32,531 nt of DNA from a virus. This document shows, one piece after another, positions 935 to 20,922 of this stretch. The notes under the pieces are model-generated. The model was not told the origin of the DNA and made no database searches. It was given only the letters and a program-made list of their open reading frames with translations. The stretch's first letter is position 1; each line of letters begins with the position of its first letter. The translations under genes and the position numbers were made by a program. The stretch covers positions 1-32,531 of IMG/VR virus record IMGVR_UViG_3300042453_003460; one strand, 5' to 3'.

Positions 935-963
935 AAAAGGAGGGATAAAACCCTCCTTTTTTT
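935..963. terminator. Bidirectional rho-independent terminator between gp32 and gp53
   Basis: Ten-base stem AAAAGGAGGG (935-944) pairs with CCCTCCTTTT (951-960) around the six-base loop ATAAAA. A T-run follows on the plus strand and the A-run at 935-938 gives a T-run on the minus strand. It sits between two convergent genes, so it can stop transcription from both sides. Confidence 0.9.
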
Positions 964-3292
964 ATATTCTCATTATTCTTTCGTTATAAGTTTTCTTCAA
1001 TTTATCATTAATATAGTTCGGATCATCTGCATCATATGTCATAATATTTCTAAGATCAGTTATAATAACAGATAAGTACTCTGGTTTTATAATTAAGAGT
1101 TTTCGTTTATCTTCATTTAGTTTAGATTCATATTCATAATTTGTAATTGGTCTTGCTAATGCAGATCCTGGAATTCTTATAATTGAACTAGTATTTGGAT
1201 CAAAATATTGGAACTCTTCTGTAACTTTTTCCTGCCATTTAGTTCCATCCCATCTCCAAGTTCTCAAATTTTGTGAATAAGTTTCATTAACTTCGACATT
1301 CAATATGTCTTCTGGTGGATCTAATGTAATTGTCGGACCATTAACATAGTTTAGTCCTCCATCAAATATTCTAAATGTAGAAATTCCAGTGTTTGATAAT
1401 TCCACCGTTATAACCGCTTGTCTAGATATAGGAGCATCTGCAATAGTTATTGTTGGTGCAACAGTGTAACCAAATCCAGAGTTTGTAATTGTAATGCTGG
1501 TAACAATACCCGCACTTATGTTTGCTGTTCCAGTAGCTCTTACAGATGGATATGGAGAACCAATAGTAATAGTTGGTGCTTCAGTGTAACCAAAACCCGC
1601 TTGAGTTATAATAATATTACTTACAGATCCATTATTGACTTGAGTTATCCCCTTTGCAGTTGAAGTTAAATTATATTCAAATATTCTATCTAGTGGTCCT
1701 CCTGCAACAACAAATTTTTCTCTATCTGATCTTACAAAAATATCCGATGGAGATTGGAGTCGATCGCCAACAAAGAAAGAGTATGTTAAAACAGCGGTAT
1801 CAATTTGCCAAGAATCCATGTCAAATTCATAGATACTTGAAGTACCCTCACTTGTTACAAATAATTTTGTTCCATCAGAGTTAAAGTTAAATCCCAGGAT
1901 TGCATTATCGCCAGAAATTGTAGTAATATTTAAAGTACGAATCGCAGATCCACTCCTTGTTAGAAGATTCCATGGACCTGAAAGAGTGTACTCTCTAATT
2001 ACATCTGGATTTATAAAGTCCAGAATGAATACCGAAGTTCCATCTGGTTTAAATCTTATTCCACCAGGAGCATTTATAGTAATTTGACTTAGTTTTGAAG
2101 CAGTGGAAAGATCCCATGCTGTTGATAATTCATATGTAACAATTTTATAATCTAATGATAATCCACCAGTGACATACATTAATGTTCCATCTGGTTTAAA
2201 TTCTACACCAGTCGTATAACTAAAGTCGGAACTTACGTCTAGTTGAGCAGCTAAGGAAACCGTAGACACTTTCCAACTCTCAGTTAAATTGTATTGTTTA
2301 ATTTGATTTAATCCTGTAAAACTTGCGGTGTATAGTTTTGCCCCATCTTCTCTAAAGTAGAATCCTTCAACATCATTCCCAACAGCACCACTGGATTGAT
2401 TATTATAAACACCATAAACAACTATTGGAGAAGGTGAAAAGGTTATTGTAGGTGATGTTAAACCATAACCAATTCCACCTACCAAATCTGTTATGGAAAC
2501 AACTTTATCAATATTAATGCCAGTACCTAACGTACAATTTGCAGTTGCTTGAATTGGTGGAGTAGGATCAGAAAAAACTACTTCTGGGGAAAAATTATAT
2601 CCTTGACCACCATTTATAGTAGTAATTCCAGATACTCTAAAATTAGAAATGGAACATGCTGCAGAAGCATTTGATGTGATTGGTGGAGGAGATATATTAA
2701 CAGTCGGAACAGTTTTATAACCTAAACCTGGATTATTAATTTGAACAGATACGATTGTATTTCCTGCGCCAACTACGGGAGTTAAAAAGGCTTGAGTCCC
2801 TGGAATGTAGATTGGTGGAAGAGTTATTCCTGGAGGAATTTCTGTTATATCTTCATATTGGGGAGAATTGTAAAAAGTTTCATCAACTATGAGTCCTCCA
2901 GGAAAAACTTCTCTTCCGAATGAATCGGTGGTAGATATAGTTTCATAATGGTGAATATCATTATAAGCATCTTCTGAACCATACTTGTCCAATAGGTATT
3001 TGTTGAAACTATCCAAATTTAACGGCCATTGATCTTGCAAATTGATGATATTATTAATGGTTAAAATAACCCAATCTAATTCAGGATCTCCATAAATCTT
3101 TTCTGCAATTTGTTCTGGTCTTTCATCTGCAGTAACAATGTAATATTCAAAGGCGGATACTACTGAACCAATATCTTCTCTGAGTTTAGCTCGTTTAAAA
3201 AAGTTCTTTACAATTAAAGTTTCATCATTAGAAACTTGATTTTTTGTTCTATTTAATACTTGTAAATTTGGTAATTCTCTAAAATATGCCAT
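962..3292 (-). CDS. gp53: gp53-like baseplate wedge protein with beta-propeller-like insert
   Basis: The N-terminal ~110 residues have the gp53 signature: a short strand, then ADERPEQIAEKIYGDPELDW (residues about 55-74) and a NNIINLQDQWPL segment, a LysM-like fold in T4. T4 gp53 is 196 aa; this protein is 776 aa. The extra part holds GxGY..xPT repeats (about residues 190, 228, 275, 565, 605 and 638). Between them, at about 295-545, are five or so repeats of the type F(K/R)PDGT.(M/L)(Y/F)V..., each followed by a Y.LS..WD/N pattern, as in YVTN/WD-type propeller blades. The C-terminus (about 675-776) returns to a gp53-like region with RTWRWDGTKWQEKV and LIIKPEYLSVIITDLRNIM. The ATG at 3292 is 2 nt after the gp48-like stop. 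It is last in a minus-strand operon. The core call is secure; the propeller is inferred from repeat pattern. Confidence 0.85.
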   Translation of the reverse strand: MAYFRELPNLQVLNRTKNQVSNDETLIVKNFFKRAKLREDIGSVVSAFEYYIVTADERPEQIAEKIYGDPELDWVILTINNIINLQDQWPLNLDSFNKYLLDKYGSEDAYNDIHHYETISTTDSFGREVFPGGLIVDETFYNSPQYEDITEIPPGITLPPIYIPGTQAFLTPVVGAGNTIVSVQINNPGLGYKTVPTVNISPPPITSNASAACSISNFRVSGITTINGGQGYNFSPEVVFSDPTPPIQATANCTLGTGINIDKVVSITDLVGGIGYGLTSPTITFSPSPIVVYGVYNNQSSGAVGNDVEGFYFREDGAKLYTASFTGLNQIKQYNLTESWKVSTVSLAAQLDVSSDFSYTTGVEFKPDGTLMYVTGGLSLDYKIVTYELSTAWDLSTASKLSQITINAPGGIRFKPDGTSVFILDFINPDVIREYTLSGPWNLLTRSGSAIRTLNITTISGDNAILGFNFNSDGTKLFVTSEGTSSIYEFDMDSWQIDTAVLTYSFFVGDRLQSPSDIFVRSDREKFVVAGGPLDRIFEYNLTSTAKGITQVNNGSVSNIIITQAGFGYTEAPTITIGSPYPSVRATGTANISAGIVTSITITNSGFGYTVAPTITIADAPISRQAVITVELSNTGISTFRIFDGGLNYVNGPTITLDPPEDILNVEVNETYSQNLRTWRWDGTKWQEKVTEEFQYFDPNTSSIIRIPGSALARPITNYEYESKLNEDKRKLLIIKPEYLSVIITDLRNIMTYDADDPNYINDKLKKTYNERIMRI
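1441..1610 (-). repeat. 120-bp-period repeat inside gp53 (GxGY unit)
   Basis: The DNA at 1441-1490 and 1561-1610 is nearly identical over its first ~36 positions, exactly 120 bp (40 codons) apart. Both encode a GFGYT.APTITI unit on the minus strand. More diverged protein-level units occur at both sides of the propeller-like insert. The nucleotide similarity suggests relatively recent duplication or gene conversion. Confidence 0.75.
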
Positions 3293-3294
3293 TT

Positions 3295-4767
3295 TTAGTA
3301 CCCCACTGATCCGTTACTTACAGACGAAAGATCATCTCTTCCACTAAAAATATTATTTGATTGATAATCAGTATCATAAATTGGTTCTAGTTCATTAAAG
3401 GCCATAGTAAAAACTGTTGATACTGGTTGACCCGAATCATAAGCAGCCCAAAGACCTTCTGGTGTGTAATTACAACTAAAAGAAGTTAATGCACAGGTTT
3501 TAAATTTATTTACACCATCAATAGCTTTTGTTCCATTTCTGTATTCCAATCGAAATACATTTGGAGCTCCTAAAAAGAAAGATGCTTGACCAGATTTTCC
3601 TCTTTGTTTTTTTGCTGCCATACCTTGTTTAAAAAATCTTATAATTCTTCTTACCATTGCAGCTTCCTCTGCACTTCTTGGAGAAAGCCTATATGAAAAA
3701 CTGAATGACCTTAACTCTGGTCCACTGAATAATAATTCTAAATTTGAATTTGGAACTATTCCAGCACCTCTTGCAAGAATTGACTCAGATTCGACACCAT
3801 ATCCCTGCATTTTTACCATTTTTGAAGTTACATCAGAAGTTGCTAATGATGCTAACTCTGGACTAATTTTACCGTCTGTCAGTAATTTAAACAGATTACT
3901 AGTTTGCAAGGCTGCGGCTGCAGCCGATTTAAATCCCATTCCCAATATACCGCCTGCCATTCCAGCTACTGCTGCAGTTGCACCCTGACTAGCAACATTT
4001 GTCATGGTATTTGCAGTAACAGCTGCAGCCATATTACTCATTTCATCTCTACCCCAACTTACAGCATTGTTATCTGATACACTTTGGGGCATTGGTAAAA
4101 TAACTGTTCCTATCTTAGATTCTAAGGTGGTATTTTTTTGAATGCCGCTTGCAGCAATTACGAGTCCACCTTGAGACCCTCCACCAAAAAGTGCTTGTTG
4201 ATTTGGTGGTTTATATGAGTACATCGTAATAACAAGATGATCCTGTTGAGGTGTCATTAAATCAACAGGATATTTCATAGGAGTTGCAAATAAATCGCTT
4301 TCATTTGAAAGACCGAAGTTGCCTCCATTTACAGAAACATTTTTAAGTGTTTCAGTAGGATTTAATAAAGCTGATGTTAATATTCCAAAATTTTCTCCAA
4401 TACCACCACCGCCGCTGGTTCCAGATGTTGAATTTGAAGGAGTAACGGATGTTTGTCCTGGAGTTCCGTTTGTAAAACTTTTAGTTGCCCATTGAGGTAA
4501 TTTAGATCCAGAGTTTACTCCACCAACACTATTATATGCTGCCTGAACTGCTACGATTGTTTGTTGATGAAGTTGTGTTTTTTCGGAATCCGCAAATCCT
4601 AATTCAGTCGCAGAAGCATTCCATTTACCATCCTGATAAATTGGTTTTGTTCCTGCAGGTGCATTTTGTTGAATAATTTGTACGTTGCCGGTCTTTAAAT
4701 CGTACTGCAAATTATACGGCACGCCATTTTTTGTTACTAATGGGTTTTTAACGTTTGTGTACGACAC
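3295..4767 (-). CDS. gp48: gp48-like baseplate tail-tube cap protein
   Basis: A 490-residue protein whose C-terminal half resembles T4 gp48 (364 aa): FSFSYRLSPRSAEEAAMVRR (about 353-372), FFLGAPNVFRLEYRNG, then a FKTCALTSFSCNYTPEG region and MAFNELEPIYD near the end. In T4, gp48 caps the baseplate hub and, with gp54, starts tail-tube polymerisation. The N-terminal ~130 residues are Gly/Ser/Thr-rich and low complexity, followed by a segment around 235-290 rich in Ala/Gly. The start is GTG at 4767, placed directly after the TAA of the preceding gene (4768-4770). Strong context support comes from gp53 downstream and gp54 in the divergent operon. gp54-type proteins share the fold, but 5761-6732 fits gp54 better. 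Confidence 0.75.
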   Translation of the reverse strand: MSYTNVKNPLVTKNGVPYNLQYDLKTGNVQIIQQNAPAGTKPIYQDGKWNASATELGFADSEKTQLHQQTIVAVQAAYNSVGGVNSGSKLPQWATKSFTNGTPGQTSVTPSNSTSGTSGGGGIGENFGILTSALLNPTETLKNVSVNGGNFGLSNESDLFATPMKYPVDLMTPQQDHLVITMYSYKPPNQQALFGGGSQGGLVIAASGIQKNTTLESKIGTVILPMPQSVSDNNAVSWGRDEMSNMAAAVTANTMTNVASQGATAAVAGMAGGILGMGFKSAAAAALQTSNLFKLLTDGKISPELASLATSDVTSKMVKMQGYGVESESILARGAGIVPNSNLELLFSGPELRSFSFSYRLSPRSAEEAAMVRRIIRFFKQGMAAKKQRGKSGQASFFLGAPNVFRLEYRNGTKAIDGVNKFKTCALTSFSCNYTPEGLWAAYDSGQPVSTVFTMAFNELEPIYDTDYQSNNIFSGRDDLSSVSNGSVGY

Positions 4768-9439: not shown

Positions 9440-11335
9440 ATGGCAGTAAAAAAATCCGAGCTTTTACAATCACCATTAGCATCAGCATTTAATAATATTG
9501 TAAGTATTAGTAGATCTCGAACTGCAATGAGATCTACTCAAAATTCATATGATGATTTTTTGAGGTTTATGAATGTTGAAATTAAAAATATAGAGGCAAT
9601 AAAACTACCAGAAAGTAAACAGATCAAAAAATTAGAGAATATTAACGTTTCAACAACTTTTGGATCTGCTGGAAATTTATTATCAAGTTTAGCAAGTGGT
9701 GCGTTAGATGTTGGAGGTTTTATTGGAAATTTTTTTGGTGGTAGAAAGAAACCGAGTCCAAATGCAGGAAAAGCAATACCAAGAAATAAAGGTTTTAAAC
9801 TAGGTGGAGTAAAAGCTCTTGGAGTCGTAAATGCAGCTTTTGCTGGATTGGATTTTGTTCAAGGTCTTCAAGAAGGAGAAAGTATGAGTAAAGCTGCCGC
9901 AGGTGCAGGTGGTAATCTTGCTGGTAGTTTGATCGGTGGTGCTATTGGACAAGCATTGGTTCCAATTCCAGGATTGGGATTTGTTTTGGGTAGTATGGCT
10001 GGAGGTATGTTGGGCGGATATCTTGGAGATCGTGCTCACGAAGTTGTAACAGGAGAAGGGGGAGGGGATGTAAAAGAAAAAACAGAAAGAAGATTAAAGG
10101 AACAAGAACAACGACAAAAGGCTGCAGCAGCTGCATCTCTTACTGCAATAACATTTCCAGAAGTTCTTGATAAGTTTGATGTTGTAGTAACTCAATTTGA
10201 AAGAATGATCCAAAATCTTGCTGCAGGAACTACAGAAACTTCTGATGAATGGGAAATGGGAGAAACTGATGAAGATAAAATAGATTATAGACCACCAGGC
10301 GCTGAAGAATTTACTCCAGGAGCTCCAACAGGGTCCGGTGATGAAATATTTCCTCTAGTTGGTGGTAGACCCACCTTTACTATGGGCCCAGGTCTTTTTA
10401 ATGCTTCTCGTGGTAGGAGAAGACATAGTGCTCAAGATATTGGAGTAGACCCAAACACCCCTGTAGTTGCATCCAGGTCTGGGAGAGTTTTAGATGCATA
10501 TTCAAGTGGATATGGTAGTGCTGGTGGTGCAGTAATTATAAGATATGATAATGGACAACAAGGTCTTTATGGCCACGTTGATCCAAATGTAAGAACAGGA
10601 GATAATGTAAAAGCTGGACAAAGAATAGCAAAAGTTACTCCAGATGGGGGAAATACGCATTTACATTACATGCGTAAAGATACTCGTGGTAATTATATTG
10701 ATCCTTTACCAATTTTACAAAAAAGTAAATCCGGAGTACCAATTGTTCAAGGACAAAAACAAGAATCGAAAAAAGATTTACAACAACAATCTCAATTCGG
10801 AAAAGATACTGGAGATGCCATGTCAATGGTATCTAAAAAAAGTCCAATGATGACAAAACCAGGATCTGCAACCGCAAAACCATCTCAAGATCTTTCCCAA
10901 ATGTCAACGGATCAACTCAAAGGAATGTTGGATCCAACAATGACTGGTGCTGCAAATCCTGCAGTATTCAGAGCCTCACAAGAAGCTAGAATGAAAGGTC
11001 AAGAATCTGGATTAACTGGAGAAGATCTTGAACGAGCAGTGATGATTGCAACAATTAGAGCAAGAAATGTAGAATCACAAGTCATGGCAATGGCACAACA
11101 ACCCGTAGTGCCTCAACAACTTGAACAATATCCAGATTATAATTTACCACAATCGAGTGTAATGATTATTCCAATGATGATGGGAGGATCTGGTGGAGGT
11201 TCGCAACAAAGACCGATGGTAGTTTCTTCGGGTGGAGGTGGTGGAGGAACTACAATCATGCCTCCAGTTCCTAAAGGTCAAGTGTTAAATAGTTTATTTA
11301 AAACCTTATTATTGACTAATTTATCGGGAGCATAA
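9440..11335 (+). CDS. Virion protein with M23 (LytM-type) peptidase domain, tape-measure candidate
   Basis: A 631-residue protein. Residues about 110-200 are Gly/Ala-rich and hydrophobic (for example LVPIPGLGFVLGSMAGGMLG), as in membrane-inserting parts of tape measures. A charged helical region follows. Residues about 310-425 form an M23 metallopeptidase domain with all expected residues: H329 and D333 (HSAQD), H379 (YGHVD), and H407 and H409 (THLHYM). M23 enzymes cut the peptide cross-links of peptidoglycan. The C-terminal third is Met/Gln/Gly-rich and low complexity. It begins 4 nt after the SleB-like gene and both start MAV. Together they would let the tail breach the cyanobacterial wall. 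Confidence 0.85.
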   Translation: MAVKKSELLQSPLASAFNNIVSISRSRTAMRSTQNSYDDFLRFMNVEIKNIEAIKLPESKQIKKLENINVSTTFGSAGNLLSSLASGALDVGGFIGNFFGGRKKPSPNAGKAIPRNKGFKLGGVKALGVVNAAFAGLDFVQGLQEGESMSKAAAGAGGNLAGSLIGGAIGQALVPIPGLGFVLGSMAGGMLGGYLGDRAHEVVTGEGGGDVKEKTERRLKEQEQRQKAAAAASLTAITFPEVLDKFDVVVTQFERMIQNLAAGTTETSDEWEMGETDEDKIDYRPPGAEEFTPGAPTGSGDEIFPLVGGRPTFTMGPGLFNASRGRRRHSAQDIGVDPNTPVVASRSGRVLDAYSSGYGSAGGAVIIRYDNGQQGLYGHVDPNVRTGDNVKAGQRIAKVTPDGGNTHLHYMRKDTRGNYIDPLPILQKSKSGVPIVQGQKQESKKDLQQQSQFGKDTGDAMSMVSKKSPMMTKPGSATAKPSQDLSQMSTDQLKGMLDPTMTGAANPAVFRASQEARMKGQESGLTGEDLERAVMIATIRARNVESQVMAMAQQPVVPQQLEQYPDYNLPQSSVMIIPMMMGGSGGGSQQRPMVVSSGGGGGGTTIMPPVPKGQVLNSLFKTLLLTNLSGA

Positions 11336-12635: not shown

Positions 12636-12844
12636 GTAACATAGACGAACACATCCAAAAAGACAAAGAAATTCTTGATAATCCTGTGACTTCTCCACAG
12701 GCAAGAAGACATACTCAAGAAGAATTAGAAGCTTTAGAAGCTTACAAAGTCAATCATCCCGATGATGATCATGATCCAACTCCCTTTGAATTGTATTGTG
12801 ACGCAAATCCCGATGCTTTAGAGTGTAGAATTTACGAAGACTGA
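12632..12844 (+). CDS. cp12: CP12-like Calvin-cycle regulatory protein
   Basis: A 70-residue acidic protein whose C-terminal third matches CP12: FELYCDANPDALECRIYED (52-70) with the cysteine pair C56 and C65 in the C-x8-C spacing of the GAPDH-binding loop. Residues 28-40 (TQEELEALEAYKV) correspond to the helix carrying the CP12 core motif. The N-terminal cysteine pair of plant CP12 is absent, as in several cyanobacterial forms. CP12 ties GAPDH and phosphoribulokinase into an inactive complex; cyanophage CP12 is proposed to block carbon fixation and favour the pentose phosphate route. It sits between gp27 and gp5 with overlaps of 4 and 1 nt, so it should be expressed with late baseplate genes. 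Confidence 0.82.
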   Translation: MSNIDEHIQKDKEILDNPVTSPQARRHTQEELEALEAYKVNHPDDDHDPTPFELYCDANPDALECRIYED

Positions 12845-15063
12845 TGATTGATGAATCTTTTATAAAATCTAATTTTTTAGGTAAAGACGGTTTCATTTGG
12901 TGGGTTGGCCAAGTGGCTGACCCCAAAGTTTGGCGTAATGATAAAACACGTATTGATAACGGAAAAGACGCTTGGGGATATAGATGCAAAGTAAGAATTA
13001 TTGGATATCACAGTTTTGATAGTAATGAATTAAAAGACGACGATTTACCTTGGGCCCATATATTAACAAGTGCATCTGATGGTGCTCCAGGTCAAGGAGG
13101 TTTCGGAAAATTACCATTACTTGTTGGTGGAGAATCTGTAGTTGGATTTTTCTTAGATGGAGAAGAAGCTCAACAACCTGTTGTCATGGGTTGTTTCCAT
13201 AGAAGTCCAGCAGTAGTAAATGTAGATAACGGAGAACCTTTCCAACCTTTTACTGGAAGCAAAGCAACTGCTCTTAGAACTGGACCACAATCAACAAGAA
13301 ATAAAGCCCAAGATGACGGAACTTCTAAAGAAATAGAAGAAAATCTGGGGCCAGGATCTCAATTTGAAATGCTCTCAAATCCAAAGTTTGGGGTGGATTC
13401 CGAAGGTAGTTTAGATTTGGATCCCGCATTTAGTCCGTTTACTACAGATACCAGTAGTAACGCTGGTGCAACTTTTGGAGCTCCAAATATACCCCAAGAT
13501 CAACTATTTTATACCGACAAAGCGGAAGCTGGATTTTTGACGGAAGTAAAAAATCTCGGTCCAGTTGAAGGAGAAAATGGATGTGGAAATAATATTCTAG
13601 CTCAAATAACCAATGCTTTACAAACATTCATTCGCACAATCAACGGTCTTGAAAAAACTGCTTTAGGATTTATAGATCCAGTTAGAAATGTTGTGGTAGA
13701 TATTCAACAAACTATTAGGTCTGTAGCTAGATTAGTTGCATCCATCATGAAATTTGTAATTAATGGTATGCGTGATGGCATTTTTAAATTGATTGGAAAG
13801 TTGTTCAAGCTTCTAGGAATTACGATTCCATCCCCACTACAGTTACCTATTTCTGAAGCTGCAAAGAATATTATGAATATAATTTTTTGCATCTTTGAAA
13901 AATTATTTGGACCTTTAATGGATTACATTATGGGACTTTTAAATGGTGTAATAGGCAAAAGTCCAAATATTCCTAGATGTGCAGTTGAAGAAATTACTGG
14001 TGCATTGGTGAATAAACTTGGTGATATGATAGATGGTGCTCTATCTTCTATCTTATCTGGTTTAGATTGGTTAGCAAATGGAATTAGTTCTATTGCTGGA
14101 GCTCTTACATCTGGTTTGGACCTGATTGGACAACTTCTAAGTTTCTTAAGTTGTGATTCATTGGCATGTAAGAGTACTACATCATGGGATCCTTTTGCTG
14201 GAGTAGCTTTCCCATCAATGGATAGTTGGAACAATGTTCTAGGAAATATGGATATTCTAAATGGTCTTGGGTCACCTGATCTAGCTTTGGGATACCTCTC
14301 AGCATTTGGTTCTTCGGATACTCCATTTAAAAACTGCAGAAAAACAATTGTAAATCCACAGACACAAGATGATCTTGGTGCAATGCCGATTGGAGTTAAA
14401 TTCTATAAGTGTATTCCACCAGAAGTTAGAATATACGGGGATGGTGTTGGTGCAAGAGCAAAAGCTGTTGTTTCTGAAGTTGACGGATCAATTGTCACAT
14501 TTTTATTATGCGATCCAGGAAGAGGGTATACTTATCCACCAGAGATTAAAATAGTCGATAACTCTAATTATGGTAGAGGTGCTCAGGCAAAAACTAAAAT
14601 AGTAAACGGAAGAATTGAATCAATTTATATTGAGAATCCTGGTAGCGGATATTGTCAAACCAACTTAGTGGAAGAAACTTCTCCAAAAACTAGTGAGGAT
14701 GGTCTAATAATTCCACCATGTCTAGATGTTGGAGAAAGTAGAATAGGAACAAATGTAGTAGGAATCAATACCAATCTTGTTATAGAAAGACCAGGAATAG
14801 GGTACACCTCTGGAGACACAATACAAGTTGGGGATTGTTTTTATCAACCAGTTCTTACCGAAGGTGGATCTATCATTGACTTCAAATCGAGTTCAAGTTG
14901 CAAACAAACGTTTAAGAGCCCTCCAGTAGTGAGCATAAATACAAAGACGGGTGAAGGTGCTGTAATTTATCCAGTTCTACAATTTGTTCCACAATTTATT
15001 GTAGATAATCCCAATTTGAGTGTTGGAATAACTTCAGTTATAAATGTAGTAGATTGTGTGTAA
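12844..15063 (+). CDS. gp5: gp5-like baseplate hub protein with OB fold, no lysozyme domain
   Basis: A 739-residue protein. Residues 1-130 fit the gp5 N-terminal OB domain: GFIWWVGQVADPK, WGYRCKVRIIGYHS, DLPWAHILTSASDGAPGQGG, a glycine turn, GFFLDGEEAQQPVVMG. T4 gp5 then has a lysozyme domain, but nothing like the T4 lysozyme motif is visible here. Instead residues about 246-442 form a long, hydrophobic, helical stretch with several Cys. Residues about 530-739 carry GxGY repeats (PGRGYTYPPEIKI, PGSGY, PGIGYTSGD) like those in gp53. The triple-stranded needle that is C-terminal in T4 gp5 seems to be encoded by the next gene. Called as the spike/hub OB protein on N-terminal similarity and context. 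Confidence 0.75.
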   Translation: MIDESFIKSNFLGKDGFIWWVGQVADPKVWRNDKTRIDNGKDAWGYRCKVRIIGYHSFDSNELKDDDLPWAHILTSASDGAPGQGGFGKLPLLVGGESVVGFFLDGEEAQQPVVMGCFHRSPAVVNVDNGEPFQPFTGSKATALRTGPQSTRNKAQDDGTSKEIEENLGPGSQFEMLSNPKFGVDSEGSLDLDPAFSPFTTDTSSNAGATFGAPNIPQDQLFYTDKAEAGFLTEVKNLGPVEGENGCGNNILAQITNALQTFIRTINGLEKTALGFIDPVRNVVVDIQQTIRSVARLVASIMKFVINGMRDGIFKLIGKLFKLLGITIPSPLQLPISEAAKNIMNIIFCIFEKLFGPLMDYIMGLLNGVIGKSPNIPRCAVEEITGALVNKLGDMIDGALSSILSGLDWLANGISSIAGALTSGLDLIGQLLSFLSCDSLACKSTTSWDPFAGVAFPSMDSWNNVLGNMDILNGLGSPDLALGYLSAFGSSDTPFKNCRKTIVNPQTQDDLGAMPIGVKFYKCIPPEVRIYGDGVGARAKAVVSEVDGSIVTFLLCDPGRGYTYPPEIKIVDNSNYGRGAQAKTKIVNGRIESIYIENPGSGYCQTNLVEETSPKTSEDGLIIPPCLDVGESRIGTNVVGINTNLVIERPGIGYTSGDTIQVGDCFYQPVLTEGGSIIDFKSSSSCKQTFKSPPVVSINTKTGEGAVIYPVLQFVPQFIVDNPNLSVGITSVINVVDCV

Positions 15064-19009: not shown

Positions 19010-19492
19010 ATGACAATTAAAAGTAAATTCATTTCTTACTTTGAAGGATACTTCGATAACCAAAAACAAGCATTTCATATGCCTAGAGAGTTTGCTCTCA
19101 TTGAGGTTAATCACAGAAAACTTTCTACAAATAAATTCACTGTAACTCAAAAATACGTTATTGATGAAAATCCATACAGAGAGTCCATCATTGAAGTAAC
19201 CCAAGAAGATCAAAAAATTATTTTAAAATCTTATAAAGAGGAAGGTAAAAAACACATATATCTTCCTGGGTGTGATATTGAATTCCTATATAATAAGGAA
19301 AAAGATGAATTTACTGGAAGAAACAATTGTAATGAGTGTTTCATTGAAAAAAATGGGAGAAGATCTTACTTGATGACTGAAGCAATTCTCGGAAATAATT
19401 ACTATCATGTAATAGATCGGGGATTGAGTCCAGAAACAAATGAACAACTCTGGGGTTCATTTTATGGAATGTTCCAATTTGATAGAAAATAA
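19010..19492 (+). CDS. cpeT: CpeT-like phycobiliprotein lyase
   Basis: A 160-residue protein of the CpeT/CpcT (T-type lyase) family. The C-terminal signature is clear: C103 and C106 in CNECFIEKNGRRSYLM, a TEAILGNNYYHVIDRGLSPE segment (about 121-140) and EQLWGSFYGMFQF (about 144-156). The N-terminal FEGYFDNQKQAF fits the start of the beta-barrel. Host T-type lyases attach bilins to cysteine 153-type sites of phycobiliprotein beta chains. Cyanophage CpeT binds phycoerythrobilin but is shorter, and its lyase activity is uncertain. It would act in the host cytoplasm on light-harvesting antennae. It lies between two tRNAs behind a late promoter motif. Confidence 0.88.
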   Translation: MTIKSKFISYFEGYFDNQKQAFHMPREFALIEVNHRKLSTNKFTVTQKYVIDENPYRESIIEVTQEDQKIILKSYKEEGKKHIYLPGCDIEFLYNKEKDEFTGRNNCNECFIEKNGRRSYLMTEAILGNNYYHVIDRGLSPETNEQLWGSFYGMFQFDRK

Positions 19493-20310: not shown

Positions 20311-20922
20311 GTGAAGAGTGATTTTTATATAGATAAAGTTGGTAAGGATGAAATTAAAGATCTTCTTTATACTCATCATTATCTAAAAGACGAATCCAAA
20401 GATTTCAAATCTGGGTACAATTATGGACTTTTCAGACATACTGAATGGGAATGTCCCCTTAGAATTGGCAAGTGTCTTGCTGCTTGCGTTTTTACTGGTC
20501 TCCCAGTCCCAGAAATTGCAGTAGGGGCTTTTGGTTTACAAAGAGATGAACAAGAGGGTTTATTTGAACTATCTCGTCTATGCGTAGATCCAGAAGTTCA
20601 AAAAGAGGAATATAATATTACTTCATGGTTCGTTAGTCGTTGTATTAAGAGGTTTAGAAAAGATGCCCGCGTTCATTGTATTCTTAGTTACGCTGATGCT
20701 GATCACCACAATGGAACTATATACAGAGCTTGTAATTTTAAGTATTACGGCTTAACAGACCCTAAAAAGGATTTTTATTACAGTGACGGGACTAAACACT
20801 CTAGAGGTAGCATTAGAGGTATTGATGGTGAGTGGAGGGATCGCTCTCGTAAACATCGCTATCTTGTGGTGTTTCAAAAGGAGTTAAAAGAAAAACTTGC
20901 CTGGAAAGAAGTTAAGTGGTAG
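20311..20922 (+). CDS. Mom-like DNA-modification acyltransferase candidate
   Basis: A 203-residue protein started by GTG. The middle part (about 85-165) resembles phage Mu Mom and related GNAT-fold proteins: FELSRLCVDPEVQKEEYNIT, then SWFVSRCIKRFRKD, CILSYADADHHNGTIYRACN (about 128-147) and FKYYGLT, ending with a TKHSRGS segment. Mom has a SYADPA..HVGTIYQA.NW.Y.G stretch at the equivalent place. Mu Mom converts adenine in DNA to a carbamoylmethylated form that blocks restriction. The best inference is a related modification enzyme or GNAT acetyltransferase. No DNA-binding partner (Com-like) is evident next to it. A palindromic terminator follows 41 nt downstream. Confidence 0.6.
   Translation: MKSDFYIDKVGKDEIKDLLYTHHYLKDESKDFKSGYNYGLFRHTEWECPLRIGKCLAACVFTGLPVPEIAVGAFGLQRDEQEGLFELSRLCVDPEVQKEEYNITSWFVSRCIKRFRKDARVHCILSYADADHHNGTIYRACNFKYYGLTDPKKDFYYSDGTKHSRGSIRGIDGEWRDRSRKHRYLVVFQKELKEKLAWKEVKW

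Follow-up and report, generated by a model that had tools for sequence, protein, structure and literature searches.

The 32.5-kb stretch of an IMG/VR virus record analysed here (the window) carries a T4-type gene set, comprising gp32-like, tail tube, baseplate hub, gp48-like and gp5-like genes and a gene for a tail fibre of 2184 aa. The gp48-gp53 pair lies beside gp32 in a cyanophage-like order that is identical in S-SSM7. The reading frame at 962-3292, which an earlier sequence-only reading had listed with no strand assigned, proved to be genuine and sits on the minus strand. The gene, its parts and its neighbours are arranged as follows:

962..3292, minus strand: gp53-like baseplate wedge gene, 776 aa, ATG start (open reading frame and translation)
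2858..3292, minus strand: gp53 N-terminal core, residues 1-145 (Pfam, PHROG and PDB sequence matches; alignment with compact gp53s)
1217..2866, minus strand: insert relative to compact gp53s, residues about 143-692 (compact gp53s of 217-291 aa; same insertion point in S-H9-2 / S-RIM32)
2423..2797, minus strand: GxGY array I, three repeats, residues 166-290 (three-stranded repeats in the AlphaFold2 model)
1652..2422, minus strand: predicted five-bladed beta-propeller, residues 291-547 (AlphaFold2 model, VIA-align, profile match)
1313..1651, minus strand: GxGY array II, three repeats, residues 548-660 (PHROG structural-protein matches, model, alignments)
962..1216, minus strand: gp53 C-terminal core, residues about 693-776 plus stop (aligns with the C-termini of other gp53s)
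3295-4767, minus strand: gp48-like gene adjoining the gp53-like gene (PHROG 230)
5-928: gp32-like gene (PHROG 224)

Elsewhere in the window we noted a 631-aa tail-region protein with a Peptidase_M23 domain (9440-11335; residues 328-422, 2.9e-17) and, among the tail genes, a CpeT-like antenna protein gene (19010-19492, PHROG 488) and a Mom-like DNA modification gene (20311-20922, PHROG 1384).

Both ends of the 776-aa protein are recognisable as gp53, as the sequence-only reading had suggested. Residues 22-115 match Pfam Phage_gp53 (PF11246; 1.1e-8, 35.5 bits against a curated cut-off of 21), PHROG 232 baseplate wedge is matched in two stretches of the protein (2.6e-54), the solved gp53 chains 9f4a and 5hx2 are matched by sequence, and BLASTP aligns both ends with compact gp53s. 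The N- and C-terminal cores and the gp48 neighbour are thus held in common with T4-type gp53 (PF11246, PHROG 232), whereas T4 gp53 has 196 residues and the window protein adds about 550 between its cores, the surplus that had been estimated from the letters and that now falls at residues about 143-692. T4 gp53 is reported to contain a LysM domain (PMC10966104). The gp53 of Shigella phage Sf14 (PMC11821841) was considered as a relative and rejected, as it is a tail fibre that shares the number only.

The insert reads, in order, three GxGY repeats, the propeller, three further GxGY repeats and a short arm, so that the GxGY repeats noticed earlier on both sides of the blades are indeed there. Each repeat is about 40 residues long with three strands, and in array I the motifs lie at residues 189-192, 229-232 and 273-276, with G and Y invariant across 34 sequences. 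PHROG matches show such repeats to be common to many virion proteins. GxGY-type repeats also occur near the C-terminus of the gp5-like hub lysozyme of the window (12844-15063, residues about 517-681), which puts such repeats in more than one protein of a single baseplate. Array II of the window protein was also considered as a rusticyanin-like domain (matches of 0.014 and up), which we rejected because the copper-ligand pattern is absent there.

For the centre of the insert an AlphaFold2 model was built on an alignment of 34 relatives. Its mean pLDDT is 85, with the propeller block mostly at 91-97, while the pTM of 0.52 leaves the relative placement of the GxGY arrays uncertain. DSSP assigns five four-stranded blades to the model within residues 291-547; the blade strands span 308-542, and a strand at 294-299, ahead of blade 1, completes blade 5, which is the usual propeller closure. 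The blade-like pattern at about 295-545 that had been read from the sequence thus corresponds to five modelled blades. The nearest solved fold in VIA-align (about 290-545) is YjiK (3qqz; Z 20.9, rmsd 2.7, 225 residues), with glutaminyl cyclases at Z 17.5-20.3 (3mbr 20.3, 3nol 19.2, 2faw 17.5); fold ranges were taken from VIA-align, as the whole-model Foldseek TM-scores were poor because those alignments span several domains. The propeller profile moreover matches an archaeal YVTN surface-layer propeller (1l0q, 5.5e-12), and this match together with many full-length homologues indicates that the blade pattern is not due to chance. A closed five-bladed beta-propeller is therefore well supported as the predicted centre of the insert, and we consider it nearly certain that the 776-aa protein is a gp53 that carries a propeller.

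The fold, along with its PDG turns, is shared with YVTN, SMP-30-like and glutaminyl-cyclase-type propellers, the closest in three dimensions being 3qqz, 3mbr and 3nol, but identity is only 12-15% and the window propeller is embedded in a phage baseplate protein. These likenesses raise the question of whether the propeller modifies the host surface, as an enzyme or small-ligand binder akin to glutaminyl cyclases or to the SMP-30/lactonase group. Besides the cyclases among the nearest folds, the SMP-30/gluconolactonase (SGL) Pfam family gives a weak match, which misses its cut-off (15.8 bits against 26.3, E 0.011), and three residues on the innermost strands, E364, R413 and D517, are invariant or nearly so. 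However, the majority of the invariant residues are Gly, Trp or Tyr with a structural role or belong to Asp-Gly turns, and with the low identity to these folds an enzymatic role appears improbable.

Scans of IMG/VR yielded many full-length homologues in other contigs, with 34-83% identity, and one locus (L008) is identical to the window over the 1572 nt shared. ORFs with a gp53 N-terminus are mainly either compact (217-291 aa) or of the propeller form (about 745-906 aa), with a few of 326-494 aa that carry other inserts or tails; since the sample leans to the kin of the window, these proportions are not prevalences. The other cyanophage gp53s in the sample are mostly compact, such as the 251-aa gp53 of S-SSM7, which has no insert. 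The comparison of cyanophage gp53s that the sequence-only reading had called for thus finds the insert in some relatives and not in others. In S-SSM6b (L214, 326 aa) a long Ser/Gly-rich C-terminal tail is found in place of an internal insert. Among 856 records of cultured phages with a gp53 N-terminus at E below 1e-3, Synechococcus phage S-SCSM2R was the only one found with this propeller family in gp53. Its 780-aa protein (XQU49932.1), annotated merely as baseplate wedge protein 53, shares the full architecture and has identical gene neighbours, but its propeller is just 39% identical to that of the window. In the open-licence literature searched, we found no T4-type gp53 described as bearing a propeller.

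The contents of the insertion site differ even between close relatives. In the cultured cyanophages S-RIM32 (L212) and S-H9-2 (L210) the DNA around gp53 is 82-90% identical and the gp53 cores are 91% identical over 199 tree columns, while the proteins differ by one 456-residue insert: gp53 of S-RIM32 is bare (219 aa), and that of S-H9-2 (QPB08430.1, 675 aa) carries GxGY arms around a central domain, inserted at the same point as in the window gp53. The GxGY and C-terminal parts of the S-H9-2 protein match the window gp53 (E 2e-25 for the second stretch), but its centre is Reelin-like rather than a propeller, with a weak Pfam match to Reelin subrepeat B (E 0.15). At a further locus (L063) the same Pfam family is matched at 1.9e-5, below the cut-off, and that domain is without GxGY matches. 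The S-RIM32 / S-H9-2 pair indicates that the gp53 core works without the insert and that the slot accepts different domains. The S-H9-2 module has a counterpart with 48% identity in a wedge gene of S-SCSM1.

L009/L011 and L130 carry a further, cupredoxin-like domain, placed at one shared site that separates repeats one and two of array II (L009:6780-7160, L130:3838-4230; also L011). It has a His ... Cys-x2-His-x2-Met pattern and weak matches to Pfam Copper-bind (0.051) and plastocyanin (1kdi, 0.0049); as the AlphaFold2 model of the L009 GxGY-II/cupredoxin stretch reaches a pLDDT of 38, the assignment of this fold rests on the residue pattern and those matches. Akin domains are present in other cyanophage proteins.

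In the tree of gp53 cores the propeller forms fall into two clades with compact forms between them, and a single propeller-form clade is rejected (AU p 3.8e-6, and 5.6e-8 after nine cultured gp53s had been added). In the propeller tree, on the other hand, the gp53 propellers cluster together, apart from nearly all free-standing ones; the six rows labelled 'other' in that tree are four 5'-truncated gp53 fragments and two long-branch bacterial proteins. Movement of the propeller module between gp53 lineages, or several losses, would fit this conflict between the trees, and with considerable confidence we regard the slot as modular and exchanged between lineages.

The propeller is under purifying selection. 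Its dN/dS ranges from 0.07 to 0.24 in ten pairs, dS being near saturation in some, and in the larger clade its identity follows that of the gp53 core (r 0.90 for the N-terminal and r 0.91 for the C-terminal core). Conservation is below that of the N-terminal core and similar to that of the C-terminal core and the arms. The propeller and the GxGY arms have equal mean entropy, and loop entropies show no propeller face that stands out as conserved. In view of the arm-like entropy, the core-tracking identity and the low dN/dS, the idea of a hypervariable tip was dropped. In the genomes compared, the propeller is 64-80% identical to its homologues and the tip of the long fibre about as much (60-77%), so that rate cannot separate an adhesin from a structural part.

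The same data bear on whether the insert might be selectively neutral, carried along as recombination shuffles structural genes rich in repeats. The GxGY repeats of many virion proteins could act as recombination points, and the S-SCSM1 counterpart of the S-H9-2 module would be in line with such spread. Against this speak the low dN/dS, the retention of one architecture across deep lineages and a reading frame that is open in nearly all propeller-form copies, the exception being L127, where decay or a sequencing error has broken the gene into several ORFs. We consider a neutral passenger very improbable.

A clue to function comes from free-standing relatives of the propeller, which are phage ORFs of about 290-1320 aa. 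In Lentibacter phage vB_LenP_ICBM2 a protein with homologous blades (AYP28110.1, 37% identity) adjoins tail-fibre chaperones; in contrast to the window gp53, propellers of this type are separate tail-fibre-like ORFs, unfused to a wedge protein, and form a distinct branch of the propeller tree. A chaperone-matching ORF lies directly downstream of the free propeller in 21 of 33 viral or phage loci (gap -27 to 22 nt), a count that used a model seeded on the ICBM2 chaperones and iterated once, and that is inflated by near-copies among the loci (e.g. L149, L152, L159, L160, L162). Pfam Phage_tail_APC is matched by six tested ORFs and three in ICBM2, with values from 1e-13 to 1e-24. By comparison, such a chaperone is found at 0 of 150 gp53 loci, a weak control as it concerns other phage types. 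Two or three free propeller ORFs stand in tandem in L139, L170, L145 and L181, like duplicated fibre subunits. A fibre subunit that comes with a dedicated chaperone is typically a receptor-binding protein, and because the free relatives look like such subunits an adhesin role is favoured for the gp53 propeller as well. The earlier proposal of a host-binding propeller is in this respect strengthened, while a fast-changing receptor domain does not agree with the correlation of 0.90 and the low dN/dS.

The strongest competitor is a structural or docking role, in which the insert braces wedges or clamps a tail fibre or another virion protein and makes no host contact. In its favour, propellers are common protein-docking folds, and the insert has diverged along with the gp53 core (r 0.90) under purifying selection. 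In Anabaena phage A-1(L) the baseplate wedge protein gp31 likewise has an insertion domain with a role outside the core, where it holds the long tail fibre (PMC10966104), although both the wedge protein and the insert differ from those of the window. But related phages manage without the insert, including S-RIM32 with a core nearly identical to that of S-H9-2, another domain can occupy the slot, which is unexpected for an essential brace, and the free relatives of the propeller resemble fibre subunits. We therefore rank an adhesin role first and bracing or docking, which we hold to be a possible but rather unlikely account, second.

On balance we lean towards a swappable display slot in the baseplate, filled here with a propeller that would serve as an additional adhesin of low variability. 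By homology the two cores would hold the place of gp53 in the baseplate, and from the domain order the GxGY arms would set the propeller outside the core fold, from where it would help to give the baseplate, alongside the long tail fibres, a hold on the host surface. That the propeller is exposed on the virion is likely; for binding to the host surface we would put the chances at about even. The T4 baseplate contains six gp53 copies, and several propellers per baseplate would follow if this copy number applies. A wider proposal, put forward tentatively and with somewhat less than even confidence, is that marine cyanomyoviruses use gp53 quite generally as an exchangeable slot, holding a propeller, a Reelin-like domain, a cupredoxin-like domain or nothing, mostly on GxGY arms.

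The display-slot idea could be examined in cultured systems, for which S-H9-2 / S-RIM32 and S-SCSM2R are well suited. Gp53 is usually viewed as an ordinary internal subunit of the baseplate in contractile tails. If the general slot holds true, it would represent a second kind of baseplate adhesin that is independent of the tail fibres, and if gp53 doubles as a plug-in slot, models of host recognition in marine cyanophages that consider only tail fibres would miss a component.
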